Source of the DNA: an uncultured marine group III euryarchaeote
GTDB taxonomy: Archaea; Thermoplasmatota; Poseidoniia; MGIII; CG-Epi1
Assembly (NCBI GenBank): GCA_902531985.1
Contig: CACAGG010000009.1
Coordinates: forward strand, 1 to 32,752
Length of the DNA: 32,752 nt
Direction of reading: 5' to 3'
Below, in pieces: positions 6,418-30,517 of the stretch. Positions within the stretch are counted from its first letter, which is position 1; the number at the start of each line of letters is the position of its first letter. The position numbers were made by a program, and so were the translations under genes. The notes beneath the pieces are model-generated. The model saw only the letters and a list, made by a program, of their open reading frames with translations, did not search any database and was not told the origin of the DNA.

Positions 6418-7104
6418 GTGAATTTAGACGTACCATTGTATGCGCAAACCTCAGATTTTAGTTGTGGTTCAGCTTGTGTAGCGATGATTCTAAAATATTA
6501 TAATTTTGTAAGTAATTTAGATCGGGATTTGGAATATGAATTGTGGAGAGAAACTAATGCGGTAGAGATGAAAGGGGCTGGAAGGTATGGCGTCTGTGCA
6601 CCATTATCTGTTAGAGGCCTCTATCCTCATATCATTACAGATAATCCAGGTCTCGGTTTAATCGAAAGAGCTAAAACTTACATCAAAAGTAATGGTGGAA
6701 GTGAGCATTACCTAGAATTTTTCCATGATATGCAGAAAAGAGTGTGCGCACTAAACGGTACAACACAGGAAATACGGAAACCTGAGTTGAAGGATATCAG
6801 AGATGCGCTTAATGCAGATCGAGTAATGATGGCTCTTGTTTCTACAATTATTTTTGAGGAAGAGGATGAAGACATTCCACATTGGATTGTTATAACCGGA
6901 GAAGATAACGGAATTCTTACAGTTAATAATCCAATTGATGAAGATCAATCAAAGGCACACAGGCCAATATATTTCGAGGACTTATACACAAATGTAGAAA
7001 TGTACCAAGAGACAACATTGATTAGTGTAGGAACAAAGGCTATCAGCAAAGAATTAGTTCCTGAACCTCCACTTTCTGATAAATATCTAGAATACGTTCG
7101 TTGA
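6418..7104 (+). CDS. Peptidase C39-like family protein
   Basis: A 228-residue protein starting at GTG 6418. The N-terminus reads VPLYAQTSDFSCGSACVAMI, a papain-like C39 signature with the putative catalytic Cys at residue 16. HWIVITGEDNGILTVNNP supplies the histidine (residue 155) and the following Asn/Asp. No signal peptide, membrane domain or ATPase is fused, so this is a stand-alone cytoplasmic C39-like protein and not a bacteriocin exporter. It may be a protease or an inactive relative; its substrate is unknown. The GTG start is chosen because homology begins immediately after it. Its 3' end overlaps the convergent redox gene by 18 bp. Confidence 0.72.
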   Translation: MNLDVPLYAQTSDFSCGSACVAMILKYYNFVSNLDRDLEYELWRETNAVEMKGAGRYGVCAPLSVRGLYPHIITDNPGLGLIERAKTYIKSNGGSEHYLEFFHDMQKRVCALNGTTQEIRKPELKDIRDALNADRVMMALVSTIIFEEEDEDIPHWIVITGEDNGILTVNNPIDEDQSKAHRPIYFEDLYTNVEMYQETTLISVGTKAISKELVPEPPLSDKYLEYVR

Positions 7105-8463
7105 AAGGTAGTAATACATTAGGTAAATACCTATTACTATCATAATGATTCCACCAGCCATTTCTATTTGGCGAGTTGAGGCCTTCATTCTATCAACAAT
7201 TGTAGTTTCAGATGCAGCAACCATCATTGTGAAGGCCACCATCAAAGTTCCAGCAGTCATTGAGAAAATTAAGAAAACTAGCAGTCCTGTTATTATTCCT
7301 TGACTAATACTTGCAGTTAGCAGTCCAATCACGACCGGAGCTACACATCCTGCAGCAGCAGATCCGTAAGCGACACCATACCAGAATAGACCAACTCGAG
7401 TTCCGTCTGAATTATCTGAGAAACTGAAGTCTTTTCCTGTTGTAGCCTTAATTCCTTTTTCTATTCCTTGTTTAGCCATAAGTGCAGGGGCCGAACTCCC
7501 TATTTGGGCTACAAGTTTACGGAATGGCTGTACTATCTTCTCAGAATCATATTCCATTACCATTACAACACCTAATCCAGTAAGTACTATTCCAATTAAC
7601 AATTCCAAATGTCCTAAGAATCCTCCAATAACACTCACAAATGGAATTAGTAATATTCCAATTAAGAGTAAAACTCCAGCTAATCCTGCCGCAGCAGCCA
7701 ATCCATCAGGCAATGTTTCTCTTGCAGCCGTTTCATCAAATTTACCCGTTCGCTGCTTCTTGTTTGCTAAGTAAAAAGACATGTACCCAGGAAGCATAGG
7801 AAATGAACATGGAGAGAAGAAAACCATCACTCCAGCACCCACTGCAAATAAATAAATTGAAGATTCTTTTAGATTAACAACACCGCCTTGACCAGTAAGT
7901 GCTTTGTCAACTTCATTACTTAATTCACTTTCAGAGATAGGGCCAACATGAGAATAGGTAATTTTCCCTTCTTTATCTATGATGAATATTTTAGGAGTTC
8001 CAATAACATTGTAGTCTATCTCAATATCTCCATTTGAATCTCCAAGGGCATGTCTCCAATCATGTTCTTCAGCATAATTCCTCAATTTAGTTTCATCATC
8101 GTTGCCAAAAACACTAACAGAGACTATTGCAATATCATCCTCGTCCATATAACCAGAATAAGGTCCTAAAGCTTCCTTTACGAATTTCTCACATGGTACA
8201 CAAGTACTGAACATAAAATCGAGAATTACTACCTTCTCACCTTCGTAATCAGATAAGGAGAAAGTTACACCTTCTGTATCTTGTAGTGTAAAATCAGGGG
8301 CCTCATTATCGCCTCCGATCATTCCATAAAGTACAACAGCTAAAATAAGAATTACACCAGTTCCAATCGCAAATAGAACTTTATTTTCTAGTATAGATTT
8401 GTACCAATCACTTTCATTGATATTCTCTATGAATACATCCCAGTTGGTTTTTTGCTTAGCCAC
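7087..8463 (-). CDS. TlpA-like thioredoxin domain fused to CcdA/DsbD-type membrane electron carrier
   Basis: A 458-residue fusion. Residues about 28-48 form a membrane anchor. Residues 54-190 are a redoxin domain (APDFTLQDTEGVTFSLSDY) with active site C88-V-P-C91 and cis-Pro157 in GTPKIF. Residues 200-458 are a CcdA-type bundle with C219 in FFSPCSFPMLPGY and C373 in AAAGCVAPVVIG, the pair that relays electrons across the membrane in DsbD/CcdA proteins. The predicted role is to move reducing equivalents from cytoplasmic thioredoxin to extracytoplasmic thiols. It starts at GTG 8463 with AGGTGA 7 nt upstream, and lies 10 nt after the secreted CxxC gene, so it is the last gene of a three-gene operon. 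Fusing donor and acceptor domains resembles DsbD in principle, but the order (redoxin first) is different. Confidence 0.88.
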   Translation of the reverse strand: MAKQKTNWDVFIENINESDWYKSILENKVLFAIGTGVILILAVVLYGMIGGDNEAPDFTLQDTEGVTFSLSDYEGEKVVILDFMFSTCVPCEKFVKEALGPYSGYMDEDDIAIVSVSVFGNDDETKLRNYAEEHDWRHALGDSNGDIEIDYNVIGTPKIFIIDKEGKITYSHVGPISESELSNEVDKALTGQGGVVNLKESSIYLFAVGAGVMVFFSPCSFPMLPGYMSFYLANKKQRTGKFDETAARETLPDGLAAAAGLAGVLLLIGILLIPFVSVIGGFLGHLELLIGIVLTGLGVVMVMEYDSEKIVQPFRKLVAQIGSSAPALMAKQGIEKGIKATTGKDFSFSDNSDGTRVGLFWYGVAYGSAAAGCVAPVVIGLLTASISQGIITGLLVFLIFSMTAGTLMVAFTMMVAASETTIVDRMKASTRQIEMAGGIIMIVIGIYLMYYYLSTNVF

Positions 8464-8473
8464 CCAGTTTCAC

Positions 8474-9832
8474 CTAGTCTTTTTTTCTATTTAATCCAAT
8501 AAATAATGCGCAAAGGATTCCAATAAGGCCGAGTCCAGGAGAATCTTCTTCGCTGTTTCCAGTTCCAGTACCTGCAAATTGTTTTACATCGCTGGCTGCA
8601 AAACCTTGTTTTCCATCAACCAACAAAATTCGATACCAAACAGGATCTCCGTCGCTAAATTCAATCGATGCAGAAGCTACATTATTTTCATCTATTTCCA
8701 TAGGCATTACTCCCCAAGCTTCATCATTGTATGAGCCATTGTGAAAATTATAAATTAGATAGGCTGAACCAATTCCATCTTCATCTTCTAGTAAAGCACT
8801 AACTTCAGCGATATTCCCTGTCAGTTGTTCATTATAGATAACAACTTTTGGAGGTTCATTTTGCTCATCATATGCTGTGGTTTCAGGAGTTGCTGAATTA
8901 GCCACTCTTGGCGTATCTGCAGCATTGCCCGTCTTCCCAGATGAGGTTGTTCTTGAGGTATCGTCATTATCGTATACTACAGCTACGACTGAAATTTTAG
9001 CAGGGTTGATTGGAGTTGGAATAGGATGTTCTCCTTCCTGCGCATTTCCATCTCTATCTTCGTGTCCACTCATGTAGTCAATAGTATCCGGAATCATCCA
9101 TTCTACTTCATGGGACCATGTTTCTGCAGGTTGTAGTTCAACTTGTTCATTAGTCAAGGCATTTTCCCTGAATACGTTGTGAGTCATAACTTCTTTTTCT
9201 TCTACAGAACTCCAAGCCATGATGTCATCCTCTACTACAAACAGATATACACTAGAATCTAAGATATCAGGATTCAGAGGTGTACTAATTCCACCTTCAC
9301 CAAGGTAAGTTAGGTTTACTGTAAAAACAAATCTATCTTCTCTAAATTCTTGCCATACTCGTAATTCTGTTGGTTTAACATCTCTTTCACCACATTCATA
9401 ATAGTGATCTTTGTAAGTGTCATATGTTCCATCTCCTCCACCTAATTCTTCAATATATCCTCCATCAAACTGAGCATCAGGAGTACCTTGAACGGAATAG
9501 TGATTGTATCTGTCTTTTGATTCTTGACTAGCAAATTCATCATCAGAACCGCCGTTAACTTGATGGAATGAAACAAAAGTTACAGGTTGCCCTGGTTCCT
9601 CTCTGAATTCTTTCCACAATTGGGCTACATCAGGATCAATCCCCATGCATGGAGGGCATCCTAAGCTAGTAAATTGCTCCATGAGAGGCCTGTGAGTCCA
9701 TCCATTTGGGTACTCATCAGGTTCAGCATTATTGGCCCCAGTAGGAATTGAAATTGATGAAATAACAAATATAAAACAAACAGCTATGGCTAGTAAATTT
9801 AGTCTCTTGCTCACACTATCACCTTGAATCAA
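8474..9832 (-). CDS. Secreted thioredoxin-like CxxC protein with PGF-CTERM-like tail
   Basis: About 446-452 residues. A hydrophobic signal segment (residues 11-32) is followed by YPNGWTHRPLMEQFTSLGCP, then a CPPC active site (C59, C62) and a GTPDAQFDGG cis-Pro loop (P118), so the first part is thioredoxin-like. The rest is a long beta-rich acidic ectodomain. The tail SPGLGLIGILCALFIGLNRK has the SPG motif, hydrophobic span and basic end of archaeosortase-processed PGF-CTERM anchors. The longest frame starts at TTG 9832, but AAGGTGAT at 9818-9825 sits just upstream of GTG 9814, which I prefer. The upstream gene is a paralogue with the active site at the same position; the downstream gene is the TlpA-CcdA fusion. 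Exact substrate unknown. Confidence 0.75.
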   Translation of the reverse strand: MIQGDSVSKRLNLLAIAVCFIFVISSISIPTGANNAEPDEYPNGWTHRPLMEQFTSLGCPPCMGIDPDVAQLWKEFREEPGQPVTFVSFHQVNGGSDDEFASQESKDRYNHYSVQGTPDAQFDGGYIEELGGGDGTYDTYKDHYYECGERDVKPTELRVWQEFREDRFVFTVNLTYLGEGGISTPLNPDILDSSVYLFVVEDDIMAWSSVEEKEVMTHNVFRENALTNEQVELQPAETWSHEVEWMIPDTIDYMSGHEDRDGNAQEGEHPIPTPINPAKISVVAVVYDNDDTSRTTSSGKTGNAADTPRVANSATPETTAYDEQNEPPKVVIYNEQLTGNIAEVSALLEDEDGIGSAYLIYNFHNGSYNDEAWGVMPMEIDENNVASASIEFSDGDPVWYRILLVDGKQGFAASDVKQFAGTGTGNSEEDSPGLGLIGILCALFIGLNRKKD

Positions 9833-9868
9833 TATTCTACGAGACGTATTTTACACTTTTGTTTGTTT

Positions 9869-11362
9869 CTAATCCCAAACTTCAGCGTCGTCCCAAGACC
9901 CTTCAGCAGGCCTTCTAGCCCACATAACAAATCCTGCAACAGCTCCCAAAACCAAGATACCAACAGCAATCATCATAATTGGTAAATCTCTTTCTTCAGA
10001 AGGAGGAGTTCCACCATCAGAACCTACAAATTGTAAAACATCAGTTCTACTTGAGGTTTTATTTCCATCTGAGAAAATAACTTGATAATAAATTTCACTA
10101 TCGCCAGAGTAAGGAATTAATGAAGTTCCTGTAGCTCCAGAGTATGCGTAACAGACTCCGTTTTCATCACAGACTTCTTCACCTTCAATTTTCATTTCAT
10201 CAGTCATCCATTCACCAGTGAAATTACTTGATTCATAATTATAGACTACAAATGCAGCACCTATGCCCTCATCAGCATCGAAGTTAGCGAGTATTTCTGC
10301 ACCTTCATCAAGGTATTTTTCAGTTTTTTTGCTTATTTCTGGAACATCTCTCTCAGGGTTGTCATATTCAGTTGATTGAGGAGTAGCAGATTGTATTGCA
10401 CGAGGCGCAGGAATAGTGTCATCACTTGGATCATTATTCTTTCCACCTGAGGAGTCGTCATCCAAATCAAATACAGCAGCAATTGGAATTATCCTACCTG
10501 GGTTGATTGGGATTTTTATGTCTCCAGATTCGCCATCACCATCAATTTGAGTAGTTGGTACTTCCCATACTGCATTTATTGTTGTAGATTCACCTTTAGC
10601 CAATTGAATAGATTCATCTTGAATTCCATATTCTCGAAATACCATTCTATTATTCCAAACTTCATCTAGATATGAAGAATAAGCAGGAACTCCATCTTCG
10701 ACCATAAATACATATAAAGTTCCATCAAGATCCGTATCTTCCAACCCAGCCTGCTGTTCCCATGATTCATCACCTGCAATTCCATGATACGTTACGTCAA
10801 CGGTGAGTTTGAATTGTCCAGCCATATCTTCACTTTCTGAACCAATGAATTCACTGTAAATATCTAAGTCAACTATCTTGAAATCTTCTCCATCATCACC
10901 ATCTCTTAATCCAGATTCAGACATTGCATTGGTGTAATCCTGATAGTTTGAATCTGCACCACCTGAAACATATCTATAATTTCCATCAAATTGTGCGTTG
11001 GGAGTCCCAGTTTGGCCGTAGTGGTCTCTCATTCTAGACTTGGAATCTTCAGTATGGAAAGGATCGTCACCAGCTCCACCATTTGTCTGATGGAAAACAA
11101 CAATATTATATGGATTTGATTCATCCATTTCGCCATCGTGAATCACCTCTTCCATAGCAGGGTCGGCGTAGCTCATACAATAAACACAGCTTAAACTGGT
11201 GAAAAGTTCACCGAAAGGTCTGTGAGTCCAACCGTTTGGATATGTTCTGTCATAATTAGTTGTTTCAAAATCAATTGTTTCTTCAATAAAACCAGATGAG
11301 CAAGGTGAGCAAAAAGAAAGCGCGATAGCCATCACTACAGCTAGTTTAACTGACTCTAACAT
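9869..11362 (-). CDS. Secreted, membrane-anchored thioredoxin-like CxxC protein (paralogue of the next gene)
   Basis: A 497-residue protein with a signal peptide (residues 1-24, containing CSPCS), then YPNGWTHRPFGELFTSLSC-VYC with C59 and C62, and TGTPNAQFDGNYR with cis-Pro121. The spacing of these elements matches the downstream paralogue almost residue for residue. A long acidic beta-rich ectodomain follows, and the C-terminus is a single membrane span (about 458-479) with a short cytoplasmic tail rich in W and D instead of the SPG-type tail of its neighbour. Both proteins also share a late VYNYE/IYNFH segment and a D-V-x-Q-F near the end of the ectodomain. It is the first gene of the redox operon, with a TATA-like ATAATATATT about 30 bp upstream, fitting a leaderless mRNA. 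Confidence 0.75.
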   Translation of the reverse strand: MLESVKLAVVMAIALSFCSPCSSGFIEETIDFETTNYDRTYPNGWTHRPFGELFTSLSCVYCMSYADPAMEEVIHDGEMDESNPYNIVVFHQTNGGAGDDPFHTEDSKSRMRDHYGQTGTPNAQFDGNYRYVSGGADSNYQDYTNAMSESGLRDGDDGEDFKIVDLDIYSEFIGSESEDMAGQFKLTVDVTYHGIAGDESWEQQAGLEDTDLDGTLYVFMVEDGVPAYSSYLDEVWNNRMVFREYGIQDESIQLAKGESTTINAVWEVPTTQIDGDGESGDIKIPINPGRIIPIAAVFDLDDDSSGGKNNDPSDDTIPAPRAIQSATPQSTEYDNPERDVPEISKKTEKYLDEGAEILANFDADEGIGAAFVVYNYESSNFTGEWMTDEMKIEGEEVCDENGVCYAYSGATGTSLIPYSGDSEIYYQVIFSDGNKTSSRTDVLQFVGSDGGTPPSEERDLPIMMIAVGILVLGAVAGFVMWARRPAEGSWDDAEVWD

Positions 11363-23374: not shown

Positions 23375-26300
23375 ATGCAAAAAACTCATAATGTAAGCAA
23401 GAGAAATTGGGCTGCAAAGCTAATGGCGATTGTAGTCGTCGTGTCTATGGTAGCAAGCACGTTAGTGCTATTCGCTCCAGAGGCATCGGCAAGAACCGGA
23501 AGTGATTCTTACGGTTATACTTTTAAGGATAATGCTGAATCAGACGGTCCAGTATATGCAGATGAATGGATAGAACTAGTAGGCAATGATGCAGCTACTC
23601 TTTTAATTTCATCTAGTACTGATGCTGGTCAATCCGCAGTTGATATTGGCTTTACCTTTGAATTCTACGAAAACGAATATACAACGTGGGGTAACGGAGG
23701 AGATAACGGGTATATTAATCTGGGATCTGCAGGTTATTCCTCTCGCTGGACTCCATATTCAATTCCATACAGTGGATTGGGTACTGCAGTTATTGGCGGA
23801 TGGTTTGACGGCGGTTTCTGTAGAGCAAGTAATCCTACAGCAGGAGTTTACTATGCTACTATCGGTACTGAACCAAACAGACAGTTAGTTGTTCAGTATC
23901 AAGATCAGGGCGCCTGGTATCCTTCAGTTTACCAATGTCCTGGAAGTGCTGCAGCTAATGCTTTGACTTGGCAGATAGTACTTCACGAGAATACAAATTT
24001 AATTACTATGAATTACAAGGATACAAATGGCGGTTACAGTTCAGATAATGAATATATGACTGCAGGTATCCAAGGTGTTCCAGGTGGAACGTTAACTGGT
24101 TTACAATATGCATACCGTAACAACCCATCTTGGTCAGATGAGAAATCAGTAAGATATGCACCACCACCTCCAGCAAGAAATGATTTAAGATTAAAATCAA
24201 CCGCTGTTCCTGACCCAATGTCATTGGCAGATGAAAATGTTCTTGGAGCTACTGTAGCTAATTACGGTGTAAACTGTGATACAGCAGGATCATGCACTCC
24301 AGTAAATGAAGACAACATTGAAGTAAAAGCTAGTATTTTCTCAGTTAAAGAAAGTGTTTCTACTTTTGCATTCGATGGTGAAGATTCAGATTCATTTACA
24401 CCGATGACTGTTCAAGGTCAAAACAAGTGGACTGCGGCTGTAAACGACGGTAAAGGAAACCATAATTACGGAGATGAAGGAAGTGACGATGGTTCTTGGT
24501 CCTCAGGACGTAAATCAACAACGCTTGGCGGTATGTTCTCAGATCAACAAAAAATCCACTATGATGGAACTAATATTTTGATTGCAGATAAAGGCTCAGA
24601 CAGCATTTTGAAATTAGATGTCTCTACAAATACAGTAACAACCGTTATTGCTACAAGTAGCACTTATCTAAACGACGTAATCGATGTTACAGATGATGGA
24701 ACATACTACTATACCTTAGCTAGAACTTCAGGAACTTACTCATCTACAACTAAAGTTTGTAAGTGGTTAATTGCAGATACAACCCAAACACCAACATGTA
24801 GTGGTTCTACTGCAGTAAGATACGGAACTTCTTTGACACACTTTGGCGGAGAGATTTTTGCATTGCAAACTTCATCAAGTTCTACATATCGTAAAGTTAT
24901 AATTTTAGATGCAAGTGATATGTCTACAGAAGGCAGCTTCGCATATTCAGCTTCAGTATCCTCTTATTACTATGCAATGGGAATTGATGCAGATGATACT
25001 ACTGGTGATTTGTATATTGCTTACCGTGATTATTACGGACGTACTAGGGAATATACTAGAGATGGAAGTGGAGATTATTCAGCATCAGATTACAGACAAT
25101 TTTACACATACGCAAGATATCATCATGCATTGGATGTCCAAGATGATTATGTCTATACAAGTGGATATTACTATTCATCCTGGTATGGTGGAATGAAGAA
25201 GTGTTCAACAAGTTCATCTAGTTGTTCAAGTCTTTGGTCATCATATTCTGGAGCAAATGGATACAAAGGTTCAGTTGCAACGACTGATACTGGTGATATT
25301 TACGTATCAAGTAATTATGCATTTAGTTACTACAGTTTCTCTAACTGGGATGACAAGATCTGGATTCACGAAAATGATGGTGGCTACTCAGGTACACCAG
25401 ATACAACCTTGGGACCAAATCCGGCCAGTATGTCAGCATTGTCAACTCCAGCATTTGATACATCAGATGCTATTGGAATGACTATGACGTTCAAATATTC
25501 ATATCAGTTTTACTACAGATGGGAAGGAGCTTACCTTGAGTCATCTGTTGACGGCGGAAGCACTTGGGATTATATCTCAGATGATAAATTCTCAGCCGGT
25601 GGATACTATGGAACAACATTCGGCGTATATGGAAATCCAATATCTACTTCACTAGATACTTGGACTTACTATAACACGAATGACAGATATAGTTACAATA
25701 CAAATACAGCCCCATGGGCTTCAGCTTCATTGGATCTTGGAGATTACACTGGCTACAGTGATGTAAGATTCCGTTGGGTTGTAGGTTTCAATCAGTATGA
25801 TAATACATACTACTATGATTCCTACTTCAGACTTGACGATGTAGTAATAACTACCAAAGAAGCAGATACAACCTATGCTGAAGAAACTCAATCCATAGCT
25901 TCTCTTGGATTTAAAGAAGAAGCAAGCGTAGAGTTCTTTACAGTAAATACCTTCCAGCCTTCGCTAGAAGGATTGGCTGTTGGAGATAAATTAGCAGTAT
26001 TGATCAGCGTTACTGGCGAAAATGGTGACGAAGATGCAAGCAACAACAGAGACATCCAATTCAGGGAAGTCAAATATGTTATATTTGCAGATGACTTCGA
26101 AGATGGCGATGCTAGCAACTGGGAAACTGGTAAAATTAGATACGGATCAGGAGATAGTTGGGGAGTTCGTGACCGAGACGCTAACGCAGGTTCTTACTCT
26201 ATGGACAGTGACTTTAGAAGATCCAATTCACTTCCAGCAGATAACTATGTCTCAACTCCAAGTTTAGACTTGACCTTGCCTGTAGAAGCTGAACTTCAGA

Positions 26301-29300
26301 TGGCAATATCTTTCTATGGATATTACACATACGATGGATATCAAGTACAAGCTTCAGGAGACGGTGGAGATACTTGGGCAGCAATACAACCTAAGGCAGA
26401 GGATTCAAGGCAGTATGGTACAATCTATAACACTGCTTACTATTCTAATCCATTACGTGGACTCAAAGCATATACATCTTATGGAACATCAACTGGGTTT
26501 ACTTATTCACCTGATCCTCAGGGATGGCTGAAAGCTACATTTGATTTGACAGAATTCTGTGGAAAGAACGATGTTAAGGTCAGAGTAGTTACAGGTTGGT
26601 CAACATTATCAACAGGTCCAAGTTACTTTGAATCGTTCTTTAGATTCGACGATGTAGCAGTTACTGGACTAGTGTTCAATGACAATATAGGTCTAGGAGG
26701 ATTTGAACTACCAGACCCATTGGGTGTGGATGCAACAGTTCCTGTAGAAACAACAGTTATCAATGCAGGTATTAACGCTCAAGACGCAGGTGATGCAACT
26801 GTAAGATTACAGTTAGGACCTATGGGATTGGAAACCTATGATTCCTCAGATGATATGGAAAGCTATGCAGATGAAGCTGCAGCAGTAGTTGCAGGCTGGG
26901 CAACCAGTGATGACTGTAATACAACCTACAGCACATGTAGCAACTGGGGATACTATGGAGGAGATCCAGGATTTGTCATGAATACTGATGAAGGAGATGG
27001 AGACGAAACCAACTCTTGGGGATCAGATGGCGATGAATTCCAGATGTATTACGGAGGAGGAAGTGTTAGTGCAACAACACCAACAATCGATTTCTCTGGT
27101 GCAGCTAGTGATTTAACTTTCACAATGGTTCACAGATACAACTTTGACTACTATTCAGGATATACTTCCTATAATGGCGCTCAAGTTCACATATCAACAG
27201 ATGGCGGAGATAATTGGGCAGTACTCACACCTAGTGGAGGATACCCAGGAACAATGTACAACTATGCACCATACGGTAATCCATTGTATGGACAAGCAGG
27301 TTTCGTACACTGTAGTTCATGTCCGGGATCTGGAGCGGCCAGTGATGATGCAGATGAGTACATCTCTTCTGAATTCGATATGGCAGCTTACGTAGATATG
27401 TCTGATGTAAAACTCAAGTTCGTTGTTGGAATGTATAGATACCAATGGCCAGGTGACGGAGAACACTGGCACATTGATTCATTATCATTCACAGGAACAG
27501 GAATGGAGTCAGTTGCGTTTGAAGAAAGGTGGGATATCACTGGCGCTGGTGCTGGTGGCGCTTTCGTGAGCGGTGAAGCTCAGACAGTAGGCGTAGATTA
27601 TCACTTCCAAGTTCCAGGCGAATACAAAATTGTATTTGATGCATGGATTGGAGATAACCCGTCTGACGGAGATGACTTTGCTGGAGACAACAGTGTTGCT
27701 CTTGCAAGAGAAACCATGTTCACAGTTGTAGGAACTACAGGAGATGAAGTTGCTATGACTAAGAAGAATGACGAAAACAATGATAGATTCTATGACAGTG
27801 GTTGGCACGCTTCAGTAGATGGAGGACCTAAGGATGGATTGCAATGGCAACCTTCAGCTACTACAGGTGCAAGTTCAGCCCCAGTATGGTGGAGTGGTAT
27901 CGACACATATGGTAGTTCGTACAACGGTGACGATACCAGTTTAGTATCACCTGTTTTCGATCTTTCAAAGGCAACATCAGCTAAGTTAGTATTCAATCAT
28001 AAATTTGCAATGCACGGGTTTGAATATTCCTGGGCTAACTACTACTATGATGGTGGTAGAGTTGAAATTAGTACAGATGCAGGAGATTCTTGGTCAGCAT
28101 TGAACCCAACTTCTGGTTTGGGCTATGGTGGAACTATCTACAATTATGCATACTATGGTAACCCATTGAGAGGCCAATCTGGCTTCGTTATGGGCTCAGA
28201 TGGTTGGCAAGAAACACAATGTAGATTAGATTCTTACACAGGTCCAGGAATGGATCAACTTCAGATAAGATTCCGATTGGGTGGAACGTTCTTTAACAAT
28301 CCAACAAGTTGGGAAATTGATGATGTAGGAGTTTATGGTCTTGGTTTCGATCTTGCTATGACTTCTGAATCAGCACCATACACCTTAGAGGTTGGTGAAG
28401 GATTCACAATGTCTACTTCATTCAAGAATCAAGGTATGGGTGATCTAGGACCTGGTGGAGCTGTAGAATCAGCTCACGCATACGCATACATAAATGACAT
28501 GAGTGGAAACGAGAAGTGGTCTTCAGCAAGTTCACTTGGATCATTAGGTATGGCTTACTATGATGAATTAGGTAACACATTTGCAGGTGAAGAATCAGCA
28601 GTTCTTGAGTTTAATTACCCAGGAATGGACACAGCTGGTCTATACACAGCAGGTATCAAGGTAGCAGATTCAGATGGTAATACCCTAGCAGACTTGTTTA
28701 TGGCTAACAATGATGCAAGTCATATGTTAATTGTAGGTAAGAGTGCCGATATGGGTACGCCTCTATTGACTGGTGGAGCTAACTGGGTAGCAACCGAAAA
28801 TGAACCAGCAGAAGTCGGTGACGGCGCTATGGGCGTCTCATGGGATCAAACTGGCGTAGCTACTGAAGCATTAGCAGTGTCTATTGGAGGACAAGCAACT
28901 GGCTTTGATCCTCAGAACCCAAGTGTTCAACTTGGAACTACAGTGACATGGACCAATGCAGATAGTATAACTCACACAGTTACAGACAAAGATGCACAAT
29001 TCGATTCTTTCGATATTGGACCTGGTGACAGCTGGTCATTAACCTTCACAGAAGTTGGAGTGTTCAGCTATTACTGTAAGTATCATCCAATGATGGAAGG
29101 AACTGTAACAGTACTGTCATCTCAGTCTGCAGATGAGCAAGTCAGAACAAATTACATTGAAGTTTGGTCTGCCACAGCTTATCTAGTATTCTGGGCCAAT
29201 TTCGATATGTCTGATGACAGTGAAATTAGTCTTTATGCGCAGAAGAAAGGCGCATCTTTGGATGACGCAGACACTCTAGGTCTATGGGGAGCTAACGGAT

Positions 29301-30517
29301 TCACCATAATGGATGGATCAAACCATGAGGAAGTTGGAGGAACACTATCTGGAGCTTCAGATGGTTGGAATCCATACTACATGTCATTGGATTCAAAGAA
29401 GCTAGGATACAGTAGTTTAGATTACGATCCAGCTGATGACAATGCATACTCATTCGTCTTCCGTGCAAGAGGTGTTGAAGGAACTGCCCACATTGGTGGA
29501 GTTCAAGTTATTCGAACACTTGATACTGGATTCTTTATGACCAAAGATGATGTCGGCAAGTTGACTTATGATATATTCCCAAGTTTAGCAGTCGAAATCG
29601 ACTACTTCACTAAGAATATAGGTACACAAGACAACACTTTCCGCATGACTCCAGAATTAGAAGCACAAGGTAAATCCTACGAAGGTGCAGCCTTTGATGT
29701 TTCAATTAATGTCATGATGAATGGTAATACTTTTGAAGATATTACTTCAAGTCAGGATGAAAACGGAATTTGGACATATGAATTCGATATGGCTCCAGAT
29801 GATGAAGCAATGATTACTGTCCGCTTCGGTGCTCCAGACTACGATCAAGAAGCAGGTGAACCAGCAGGTAACCGCAAATTTGATGTAATAGTCAATGGAT
29901 ATGATGTAGGCAGTGATGAAGCTCTAAGAGAACCAGTTGCAGCAACTTTGTTCATCAAACCTTCACAGTTTGTGCTTGGTGAGATGACCTTTAACCGCGC
30001 AGGTGTAATCGAAGGAGACTCTTTAGATATCACAGTTAAAGCATGGAATGAAGGTAACTACGCATCTGATGTGTTAGTTGTTTTCTACGCTATGGATTCA
30101 ACTGGTGATGCATACTCTACTCCAGAAGGAGTCAAACGTATGAAGAGAGTGGCTTCAACAACTGTACCACTAATGGCACCTAAGCCTGTTTTAGAAAATG
30201 ATGGAGTTTTCCAAACTTGGTACTTTGCAACAGCAACATGGGACGAAACATTCATTCCAGGAACTACAGTTCAAGACTTTGAGACTGTAGAAATGTATGC
30301 AATGATCAACCCTGATGCAGAAGAGCAAGATGTCAAAGATGGAGTGAAAACTCAAGATGAGTATCTAAACCAGAAAGATGATAATGATGCAGTTGGCAGC
30401 ATTGCAGTTGTCAAGAACAAGGCATCTACACCATCTTTCACAGTAGGACTCATTGGTCTGTCTGTAGCAGCCTTAGTAGCATCTATTGGTGCTTCTCTCC
30501 GTAGAGAAGAAGAATAG
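23375..30517 (+). CDS. Giant secreted multidomain surface protein with cupredoxin domain and C-terminal sorting-type anchor
   Basis: 2380 residues. Signal peptide 1-39, likely cut after EASA. Then an N-terminal beta domain (about 45-260) and a CARDB-like segment. A Ser/Tyr-rich beta-propeller-like region follows (about 390-675; e.g. YDGTNILIADKGSDSILKLD). Four related jelly-roll modules lie at about 680-830, 900-1098, 1155-1380 and 1466-1659; most share a DGG.TW strand, a YGNPLRGQ-like loop and a closing F-R-F/L-D-D-V. Next come a CARDB-like domain (1660-1790) and a type I copper site (about 1825-1917: H1867 in ITHTVTD, then C1901, H1904, M1907 in YYCKYHPMMEG). Further beta domains lead to the tail PSFTVGLIGLSVAALVASIG plus RREEE, resembling PGF-CTERM-type sorting tails. 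Start ATG with AAGGTG 7 nt upstream. Likely a cell-surface adhesin or S-layer-associated protein; function unproven. Confidence 0.85.
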   Translation: MQKTHNVSKRNWAAKLMAIVVVVSMVASTLVLFAPEASARTGSDSYGYTFKDNAESDGPVYADEWIELVGNDAATLLISSSTDAGQSAVDIGFTFEFYENEYTTWGNGGDNGYINLGSAGYSSRWTPYSIPYSGLGTAVIGGWFDGGFCRASNPTAGVYYATIGTEPNRQLVVQYQDQGAWYPSVYQCPGSAAANALTWQIVLHENTNLITMNYKDTNGGYSSDNEYMTAGIQGVPGGTLTGLQYAYRNNPSWSDEKSVRYAPPPPARNDLRLKSTAVPDPMSLADENVLGATVANYGVNCDTAGSCTPVNEDNIEVKASIFSVKESVSTFAFDGEDSDSFTPMTVQGQNKWTAAVNDGKGNHNYGDEGSDDGSWSSGRKSTTLGGMFSDQQKIHYDGTNILIADKGSDSILKLDVSTNTVTTVIATSSTYLNDVIDVTDDGTYYYTLARTSGTYSSTTKVCKWLIADTTQTPTCSGSTAVRYGTSLTHFGGEIFALQTSSSSTYRKVIILDASDMSTEGSFAYSASVSSYYYAMGIDADDTTGDLYIAYRDYYGRTREYTRDGSGDYSASDYRQFYTYARYHHALDVQDDYVYTSGYYYSSWYGGMKKCSTSSSSCSSLWSSYSGANGYKGSVATTDTGDIYVSSNYAFSYYSFSNWDDKIWIHENDGGYSGTPDTTLGPNPASMSALSTPAFDTSDAIGMTMTFKYSYQFYYRWEGAYLESSVDGGSTWDYISDDKFSAGGYYGTTFGVYGNPISTSLDTWTYYNTNDRYSYNTNTAPWASASLDLGDYTGYSDVRFRWVVGFNQYDNTYYYDSYFRLDDVVITTKEADTTYAEETQSIASLGFKEEASVEFFTVNTFQPSLEGLAVGDKLAVLISVTGENGDEDASNNRDIQFREVKYVIFADDFEDGDASNWETGKIRYGSGDSWGVRDRDANAGSYSMDSDFRRSNSLPADNYVSTPSLDLTLPVEAELQMAISFYGYYTYDGYQVQASGDGGDTWAAIQPKAEDSRQYGTIYNTAYYSNPLRGLKAYTSYGTSTGFTYSPDPQGWLKATFDLTEFCGKNDVKVRVVTGWSTLSTGPSYFESFFRFDDVAVTGLVFNDNIGLGGFELPDPLGVDATVPVETTVINAGINAQDAGDATVRLQLGPMGLETYDSSDDMESYADEAAAVVAGWATSDDCNTTYSTCSNWGYYGGDPGFVMNTDEGDGDETNSWGSDGDEFQMYYGGGSVSATTPTIDFSGAASDLTFTMVHRYNFDYYSGYTSYNGAQVHISTDGGDNWAVLTPSGGYPGTMYNYAPYGNPLYGQAGFVHCSSCPGSGAASDDADEYISSEFDMAAYVDMSDVKLKFVVGMYRYQWPGDGEHWHIDSLSFTGTGMESVAFEERWDITGAGAGGAFVSGEAQTVGVDYHFQVPGEYKIVFDAWIGDNPSDGDDFAGDNSVALARETMFTVVGTTGDEVAMTKKNDENNDRFYDSGWHASVDGGPKDGLQWQPSATTGASSAPVWWSGIDTYGSSYNGDDTSLVSPVFDLSKATSAKLVFNHKFAMHGFEYSWANYYYDGGRVEISTDAGDSWSALNPTSGLGYGGTIYNYAYYGNPLRGQSGFVMGSDGWQETQCRLDSYTGPGMDQLQIRFRLGGTFFNNPTSWEIDDVGVYGLGFDLAMTSESAPYTLEVGEGFTMSTSFKNQGMGDLGPGGAVESAHAYAYINDMSGNEKWSSASSLGSLGMAYYDELGNTFAGEESAVLEFNYPGMDTAGLYTAGIKVADSDGNTLADLFMANNDASHMLIVGKSADMGTPLLTGGANWVATENEPAEVGDGAMGVSWDQTGVATEALAVSIGGQATGFDPQNPSVQLGTTVTWTNADSITHTVTDKDAQFDSFDIGPGDSWSLTFTEVGVFSYYCKYHPMMEGTVTVLSSQSADEQVRTNYIEVWSATAYLVFWANFDMSDDSEISLYAQKKGASLDDADTLGLWGANGFTIMDGSNHEEVGGTLSGASDGWNPYYMSLDSKKLGYSSLDYDPADDNAYSFVFRARGVEGTAHIGGVQVIRTLDTGFFMTKDDVGKLTYDIFPSLAVEIDYFTKNIGTQDNTFRMTPELEAQGKSYEGAAFDVSINVMMNGNTFEDITSSQDENGIWTYEFDMAPDDEAMITVRFGAPDYDQEAGEPAGNRKFDVIVNGYDVGSDEALREPVAATLFIKPSQFVLGEMTFNRAGVIEGDSLDITVKAWNEGNYASDVLVVFYAMDSTGDAYSTPEGVKRMKRVASTTVPLMAPKPVLENDGVFQTWYFATATWDETFIPGTTVQDFETVEMYAMINPDAEEQDVKDGVKTQDEYLNQKDDNDAVGSIAVVKNKASTPSFTVGLIGLSVAALVASIGASLRREEE

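Follow-up and report, generated by a model that had tools for sequence, protein, structure and literature searches.

A probable extracellular thiol-reducing operon in a marine group III archaeon, with a redoxin-CcdA fusion and two Omp28-type proteins

We analysed a stretch of 32,752 nucleotides (nt) from an uncultured marine group III euryarchaeote (contig CACAGG010000009.1 of assembly GCA_902531985.1), here called the window, which is contig C9 of a genome of 0.97 Mb that is 75% complete. According to its list of open reading frames (ORFs), three adjacent minus-strand genes encode, in this order, two secreted CxxC proteins, which we call effectors E2 and E1, and a fusion of a redoxin domain with a CcdA-like membrane domain, which we call the conduit. 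This operon is probably an extracellular thiol-reducing system, in which the conduit would feed two membrane-anchored Omp28-type oxidoreductases acting on surface disulfides. The observations on which this model is built are the gene order, the conservation of the redox cysteines, the conservation of the operon, the fusion of its parts in other archaea, the co-occurrence of effector and conduit, and the thioredoxin-type succession of secondary-structure elements in the E1 model. A three-gene operon had been proposed in an initial annotation of the window, and the ORFs are found where it placed them.

In 22 genomes of three Poseidoniia families (17 of Marine Group III, four of family f3, including Thalassarchaeaceae records, and one of family f2), the gene directly before the conduit gene, in the same orientation, encodes an effector, and the genes flanking the pair differ between these groups. 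In five other Thermoplasmatota genomes, belonging to two other families (G066, G075, G081 and G086 of f10, and G090 of f24), the effector, a transmembrane segment, the redoxin domain and CcdA form one ORF, of 901-930 amino acids (aa) in four cases and cut off by the contig end in the fifth; profile matches inside these ORFs reach 8e-120 for the effector and 2e-75 for the conduit. This fusion into one protein in related archaea argues strongly that the two have a joint function. In a maximum-likelihood tree, E1 and E2 form two clades with full support and the fused state needs two changes. The central proposal of the initial annotation, that a TlpA-CcdA conduit supplies CxxC effectors at the cell surface, is thus supported both by a gene order that stays fixed in changing contexts and by fusions in two lineages. 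Long CxxC relatives (ATDCFYC), similar in kind to the 776-aa paralogue described below, adjoin the fused gene at three loci (L113, L114 and L115).

Co-occurrence with CcdA-type genes, a check suggested in the initial annotation, is pronounced. Among 245 Thermoplasmatota genomes, with a strong effector match required, the conduit is present in 18 of the 19 genomes with an effector versus 8 of the 226 without one (Fisher test, 3e-20 per genome and 8e-4 per family for 39 families, both values uncorrected for descent). When the effector is unlinked, the conduit is found elsewhere in the genome in four of five such genomes; the neighbours of two unlinked effectors are only partly seen because their contigs are shorter than 4.3 kb. 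A highly identical copy of the Marine Group III operon also occurs in a record titled Neomarinimicrobiota (PCCQ01000072.1), which is probably a mislabelled or contaminant contig.

The features of the operon are as follows, all on the minus strand of the window.

9869-11362: effector E2, 497 aa; signal peptide, thioredoxin-type domain, beta-rich ectodomain, C-terminal transmembrane anchor
11177-11188: E2 active-site CVYC (C59/C62), followed by a nearly invariant Met (from the alignment)
10151-10171: second cysteine pair of E2, C398-x5-C404, in the C-terminal beta domain; conserved in most E2, single and fused homologues
9872-9991: C-terminal transmembrane anchor of E2 and short charged tail, WARRPAEGSWDDAEVWD (from the sequence)
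8474-9832: effector E1, 452 aa; signal peptide, thioredoxin-type domain, beta-sandwich ectodomain, PGF-CTERM-like tail
9647-9658: E1 active-site CPPC (C59/C62 from TTG, C53/C56 from GTG; from the alignment)
8477-8542: PGF-CTERM-like sorting signal of E1, SPGLGLIGILCALFIGLNRKKD (from the sequence; PGFG in several orthologues)
7087-8463: redoxin-CcdA conduit, 458 aa; N-terminal transmembrane segment, extracellular ResA/TlpA-type redoxin domain, CcdA-like membrane domain
8191-8202: redoxin CVPC (C88/C91; from the conduit comparison)
7807-7809: CcdA intramembrane cysteine C219 (SPCSFPMLPGY; from the conduit comparison)
7345-7347: CcdA intramembrane cysteine C373 (GCVAP; from the conduit comparison)

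The likely true start of E1 is the GTG at 9814 (446 aa), since nearly all orthologues begin at the matching point; the E2 stop lies 54 nt before it, and 10 nt separate E1 from the fusion gene. The initial annotation had noted that both effectors carry their CxxC at positions 59/62. The columns are indeed homologous, but the equal numbering depends on a TTG start at 9832 and was rejected as a signal, the E1 site standing at 53/56 when counted from the GTG.

The conduit has exactly four cysteines, C88 and C91 (FSTCVPCEK), C219 (FFSPCSFPMLPGY) and C373 (AAAGCVAPV), and they are precisely the two redox centres that the initial annotation had assigned to it. All 25 conduits that we compared have both the redoxin CxxC and the first CcdA motif (SPC or APC), and the second (GC, SC or AC) occurs in 24 of the 24 conduits that reach that far. 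The redoxin domain exceeds the Pfam cut-off for the Redoxin and AhpC-TSA families (PF00578, 4e-16; PF08534, 7e-14); its closest solved structures are those of ResA, to 3e-17, in a list that also holds 2yp6, 4hqz, 4hqs and 4evm, which we take to be pneumococcal Etrx entries. The membrane part matches PF02683 (DsbD_TM) weakly, with an E-value of 0.049 that falls below the cut-off. We nevertheless identify it as CcdA, because related and fused homologues (the fused L109 and L114, and the Poseidoniia homologue L108) pass that cut-off and because it bears the two intramembrane cysteine motifs. The AlphaFold2 model of the conduit has a mean predicted local distance difference test score (pLDDT) of 57.7 and is usable for the redoxin domain alone. 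In genomes with unlinked effectors, some conduits have N-terminal extensions, Pro-rich and cytosolic-looking in L122 and L123, beta-rich and with a signal peptide in L127 and L129.

E1 and E2 are paralogues, with a BLASTP E-value of 1e-65 and 32% identity across 483 columns, far beyond chance. Their CPPC and CVYC fall in aligned columns, inside the shared YPNGWTHRP...FTSL-C...TPxAQFDG signature that the initial annotation had recognised along with the divergent PP and VY dipeptides. Each consists of an N-terminal thioredoxin-type domain (CxxC-Met, Thr-Pro) followed by some 300 beta-rich residues. Across 27 effector homologues, the CxxC cysteines, the next Met, W/HRP, FH..NG and GTP..DG show little or no variation and, in answer to the question raised in the initial annotation of whether homologues regularly lack the cysteines, the CxxC is retained in 43 of the 44 effectors of a wider set. 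That annotation had missed a second pair, C398 and C404 of E2; most members have it, and two divergent copies and all 13 of the E1 proteins lack it. One divergent protein, the second effector copy of G066 (L119:3610-5505), has lost this C-terminal pair and reads CPSS at the active site; the contig ends inside its gene. A further CxxC of E2, C18/C21, was rejected as a redox site, as it sits in the leader and is not conserved in G014 and G016. Orthologues of E2 were found in 11 genomes. The different C-terminal anchors that had been noted are supported: E2 ends in an ordinary transmembrane anchor, with a tail that varies among orthologues, and E1 in a tail that by eye reads PGFG-hydrophobic-RRK, with archaeosortase A (ArtA, TIGR04125) above cut-off in the window genome, although no sorting-tail model of NCBIfam matched E1. 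Contig C11 of the same genome encodes a third secreted paralogue (L048:5757-8087) of about 776 aa, conserved in the family, which combines a WCVYC thioredoxin-type domain with Big_7 immunoglobulin repeats.

What kind of proteins are these effectors? Pfam gave no confident match for either, and PF11551 matched neither. The NCBIfam model NF045500 (Omp28_seleno) matches E1 at 1.6e-8 and E2 at 6e-5, as well as 24 of the 27 effector homologues at E<=0.001 (best 6.6e-9), in alignments that span the thioredoxin part and the first portion of the beta domain. All matches are far below the curated cut-offs (E1 scores 34.3 bits where NF045500 requires 200, and 23.5 where NF033782 requires 150), so E1 and E2 are not members of the named Omp28 families; their sequences place them at a distance within the Omp28 superfamily, and they are hence no wholly new protein type. 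A review from 2026 (PMC13188914) gives the motif of NF045500 as UxxC, in which selenocysteine takes the place of the first CxxC cysteine, and these relatives therefore use the first position for redox chemistry. The AlphaFold2 model of E1 (mean pLDDT 77.5) bears out the beta-rich ectodomain that had been described, and predicts a thioredoxin-type order of secondary structure, beta-alpha-beta-alpha-beta-beta-alpha by DSSP; helix 1 opens with the CxxC, the Thr-Pro loop precedes strand 3, and beta-rich domains follow. A Foldseek search with this model was uninformative, with no thioredoxin among the matches listed and, at the top, beta-sandwich proteins with query TM-scores below 0.3. A search of PDB sequences with the effector profile returned no significant relative, and no DsbC/DsbG family appeared among the Pfam or NCBIfam matches of the window proteins.

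In the mechanism that we propose, electrons would pass from cytosolic thioredoxin to the C219/C373 pair of CcdA, cross the membrane there, and reach C88/C91 of the redoxin domain, which would keep the CPPC of E1 and the CVYC of E2 reduced. E1 and E2 would then act on the disulfides of surface proteins, as reductases or isomerases; the beta-sandwich domains probably serve to position the enzymes or to bind clients. The outward direction, from CcdA to redoxin to E1/E2, is suggested by analogy with characterised CcdA/DsbD proteins, which export electrons, as in pneumococcal CcdA-Etrx (PMC3914529). An oxidising counterpart likely exists in the genus: in Marine Group III relatives, a locus (L144:4366-6913, on contig C2 of G007) encodes in a row a VKOR (CPFC), a redoxin (CGYC) and a 486-aa redoxin protein (CGHC) with a lipobox-like start. 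VKOR was not detected in the window genome, which is incomplete. We count this locus in favour of a reducing operon because an oxidising system of this type classically goes together with a branch that reduces or isomerises. The two effectors may be specialised, given their differing dipeptides, their anchors and the cysteine pair lost from E1, but there is just one effector in many relatives. It is a conjecture that E1 (CPPC) is reductase-like and E2 (CVYC) isomerase-like; a CxxC dipeptide ending in Tyr, as in E2, is known from DsbC/DsbG.

Several facts weigh against this thiol-reducing model. From genome to genome, the similarity of the conduit does not track that of the effector: the conduits of G018 and G013 are 71% identical to that of the window, but each of these genomes has one different effector (about 39-40%), while G014 has both E1 and E2 (68% and 66%) with a conduit that is only 46% identical. 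These contrary identities do not support strict pairwise co-evolution of conduit and effector, and would fit effectors being exchanged while the conduit is shared. Moreover, 8 of the 26 conduit-bearing genomes of the phylum sample lack an effector, G017 and G020 have a conduit without one, and the effector of G100 is accompanied by no more than a weak conduit match. The single exception to CxxC retention is a divergent effector copy with CPSS instead of CPSC. Finally, cytochrome c assembly genes are also present, and the conduit may therefore have other clients.

This last point leads to the rival explanation that survives best, which we still consider unlikely: the conduit would mainly be a reductase for cytochrome c or CuA maturation, in the role of CcdA-ResA/CcmG, with E1 and E2 as its accessory proteins or chaperones. 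ResA is the nearest sequence relative of the redoxin domain, which is also weakly similar to SCO1/SenC, and Ccm-type cytochrome c assembly proteins (PF01578) occur in 20 of 21 relatives, the window genome included. However, PF01578 genes sit at other loci, eight Poseidoniia genomes in which the search gave no strong effector (G021-G028) also have them, and there are stand-alone redoxins that might act as CcmG; the linked and fused partner of the conduit is the effector and not a cytochrome gene. Less probable still is that E1 and E2 are clients or sensors: their CxxC, kept reduced by the conduit, would then be a disulfide with a structural or regulatory role, or else bind a metal (CxxCM). The near-invariant Met after the CxxC, the large ectodomains and the two cysteine pairs of most members would suit such a role, but the modelled E1 has the thioredoxin-type element order and the Thr-Pro loop, and the UxxC selenoproteins of the homologous family fit catalysis. 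We give very little credence to an inward flow, in which E1 and E2 would be oxidising enzymes whose electrons the conduit drains. Direction is not set by the CxxC alone, and the VY/VF dipeptides of the E2 type are atypical of thioredoxin; yet characterised CcdA and DsbD proteins, such as the pneumococcal one cited above, work outwards, and oxidation has a separate VKOR locus in the genus. Chance or artefact was rejected, as operon and motifs are conserved in many genomes.

Beside the operon, a C39-like peptidase gene (DUF3335; 6418-7104) is convergent with the conduit gene, overlaps its 3' end by 18 nt and is retained as a neighbour at most Marine Group III loci. MsrA is an ORF of about 155 aa outside the effector-conduit operon. 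The window also contains a plus-strand ORF of 2380 aa (23375-30517).

Extracellular disulfide handling in archaea is little known, and our literature search found neither a description of an archaeal Omp28-CcdA system nor an assigned biochemical function for Omp28 proteins. The conserved operon and its natural fusions give the latter a specific and testable partner, the CcdA-linked redoxin. More tentatively, and with confidence that falls short of even, we propose that the Omp28 superfamily consists of CcdA-fed extracellular thiol reductases or isomerases, and that Thermoplasmatota built from them a modular relay in three layers (CcdA, redoxin and Omp28-type effector), with effectors that are duplicated, swapped or fused to one conduit and that use two cysteine pairs. 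A close parallel may be drawn with the surface thioredoxin systems CcdA1-Etrx1 and CcdA2-Etrx2 of Streptococcus pneumoniae (PMC3914529), where CcdA also feeds surface-anchored thioredoxin-fold proteins, encoded in small operons and with two paralogous surface redoxins. There, however, Etrx is itself the redoxin and MsrAB2 the terminal client, while here, in an archaeal host, the redoxin is fused to CcdA and would feed a further layer of large Omp28-type proteins. DsbD, with DsbC and DsbG, is likewise a membrane conduit with a fused extracytoplasmic redox domain that feeds a thiol reductase or isomerase, but in our case the redoxin is N-terminal of CcdA, and the effectors have beta-sandwich domains and, in some archaea, form one chain with the conduit. 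DsbC and DsbG have a Thr before the loop Pro, as do the effectors described here. The Omp28 superfamily (the selenoprotein family NF045500 and the lipoprotein family NF033782) shares the CxxC/UxxC logic, whereas our effectors have archaeal anchors and are linked and fused to CcdA. ResA, TlpA and CcmG also pair a redoxin domain with a CcdA partner; here both are in one chain with an N-terminal transmembrane segment, linked to Omp28-type effectors and not to cytochrome c genes. The kind of system is therefore a known one, that of extracellular reductases fed by DsbD or CcdA, and what is new is the added layer of Omp28-type effectors, conserved and partly fused across Thermoplasmatota. As a relay of three layers in which one conduit serves interchangeable effectors, it differs from the bacterial CcdA and DsbD systems known to us.

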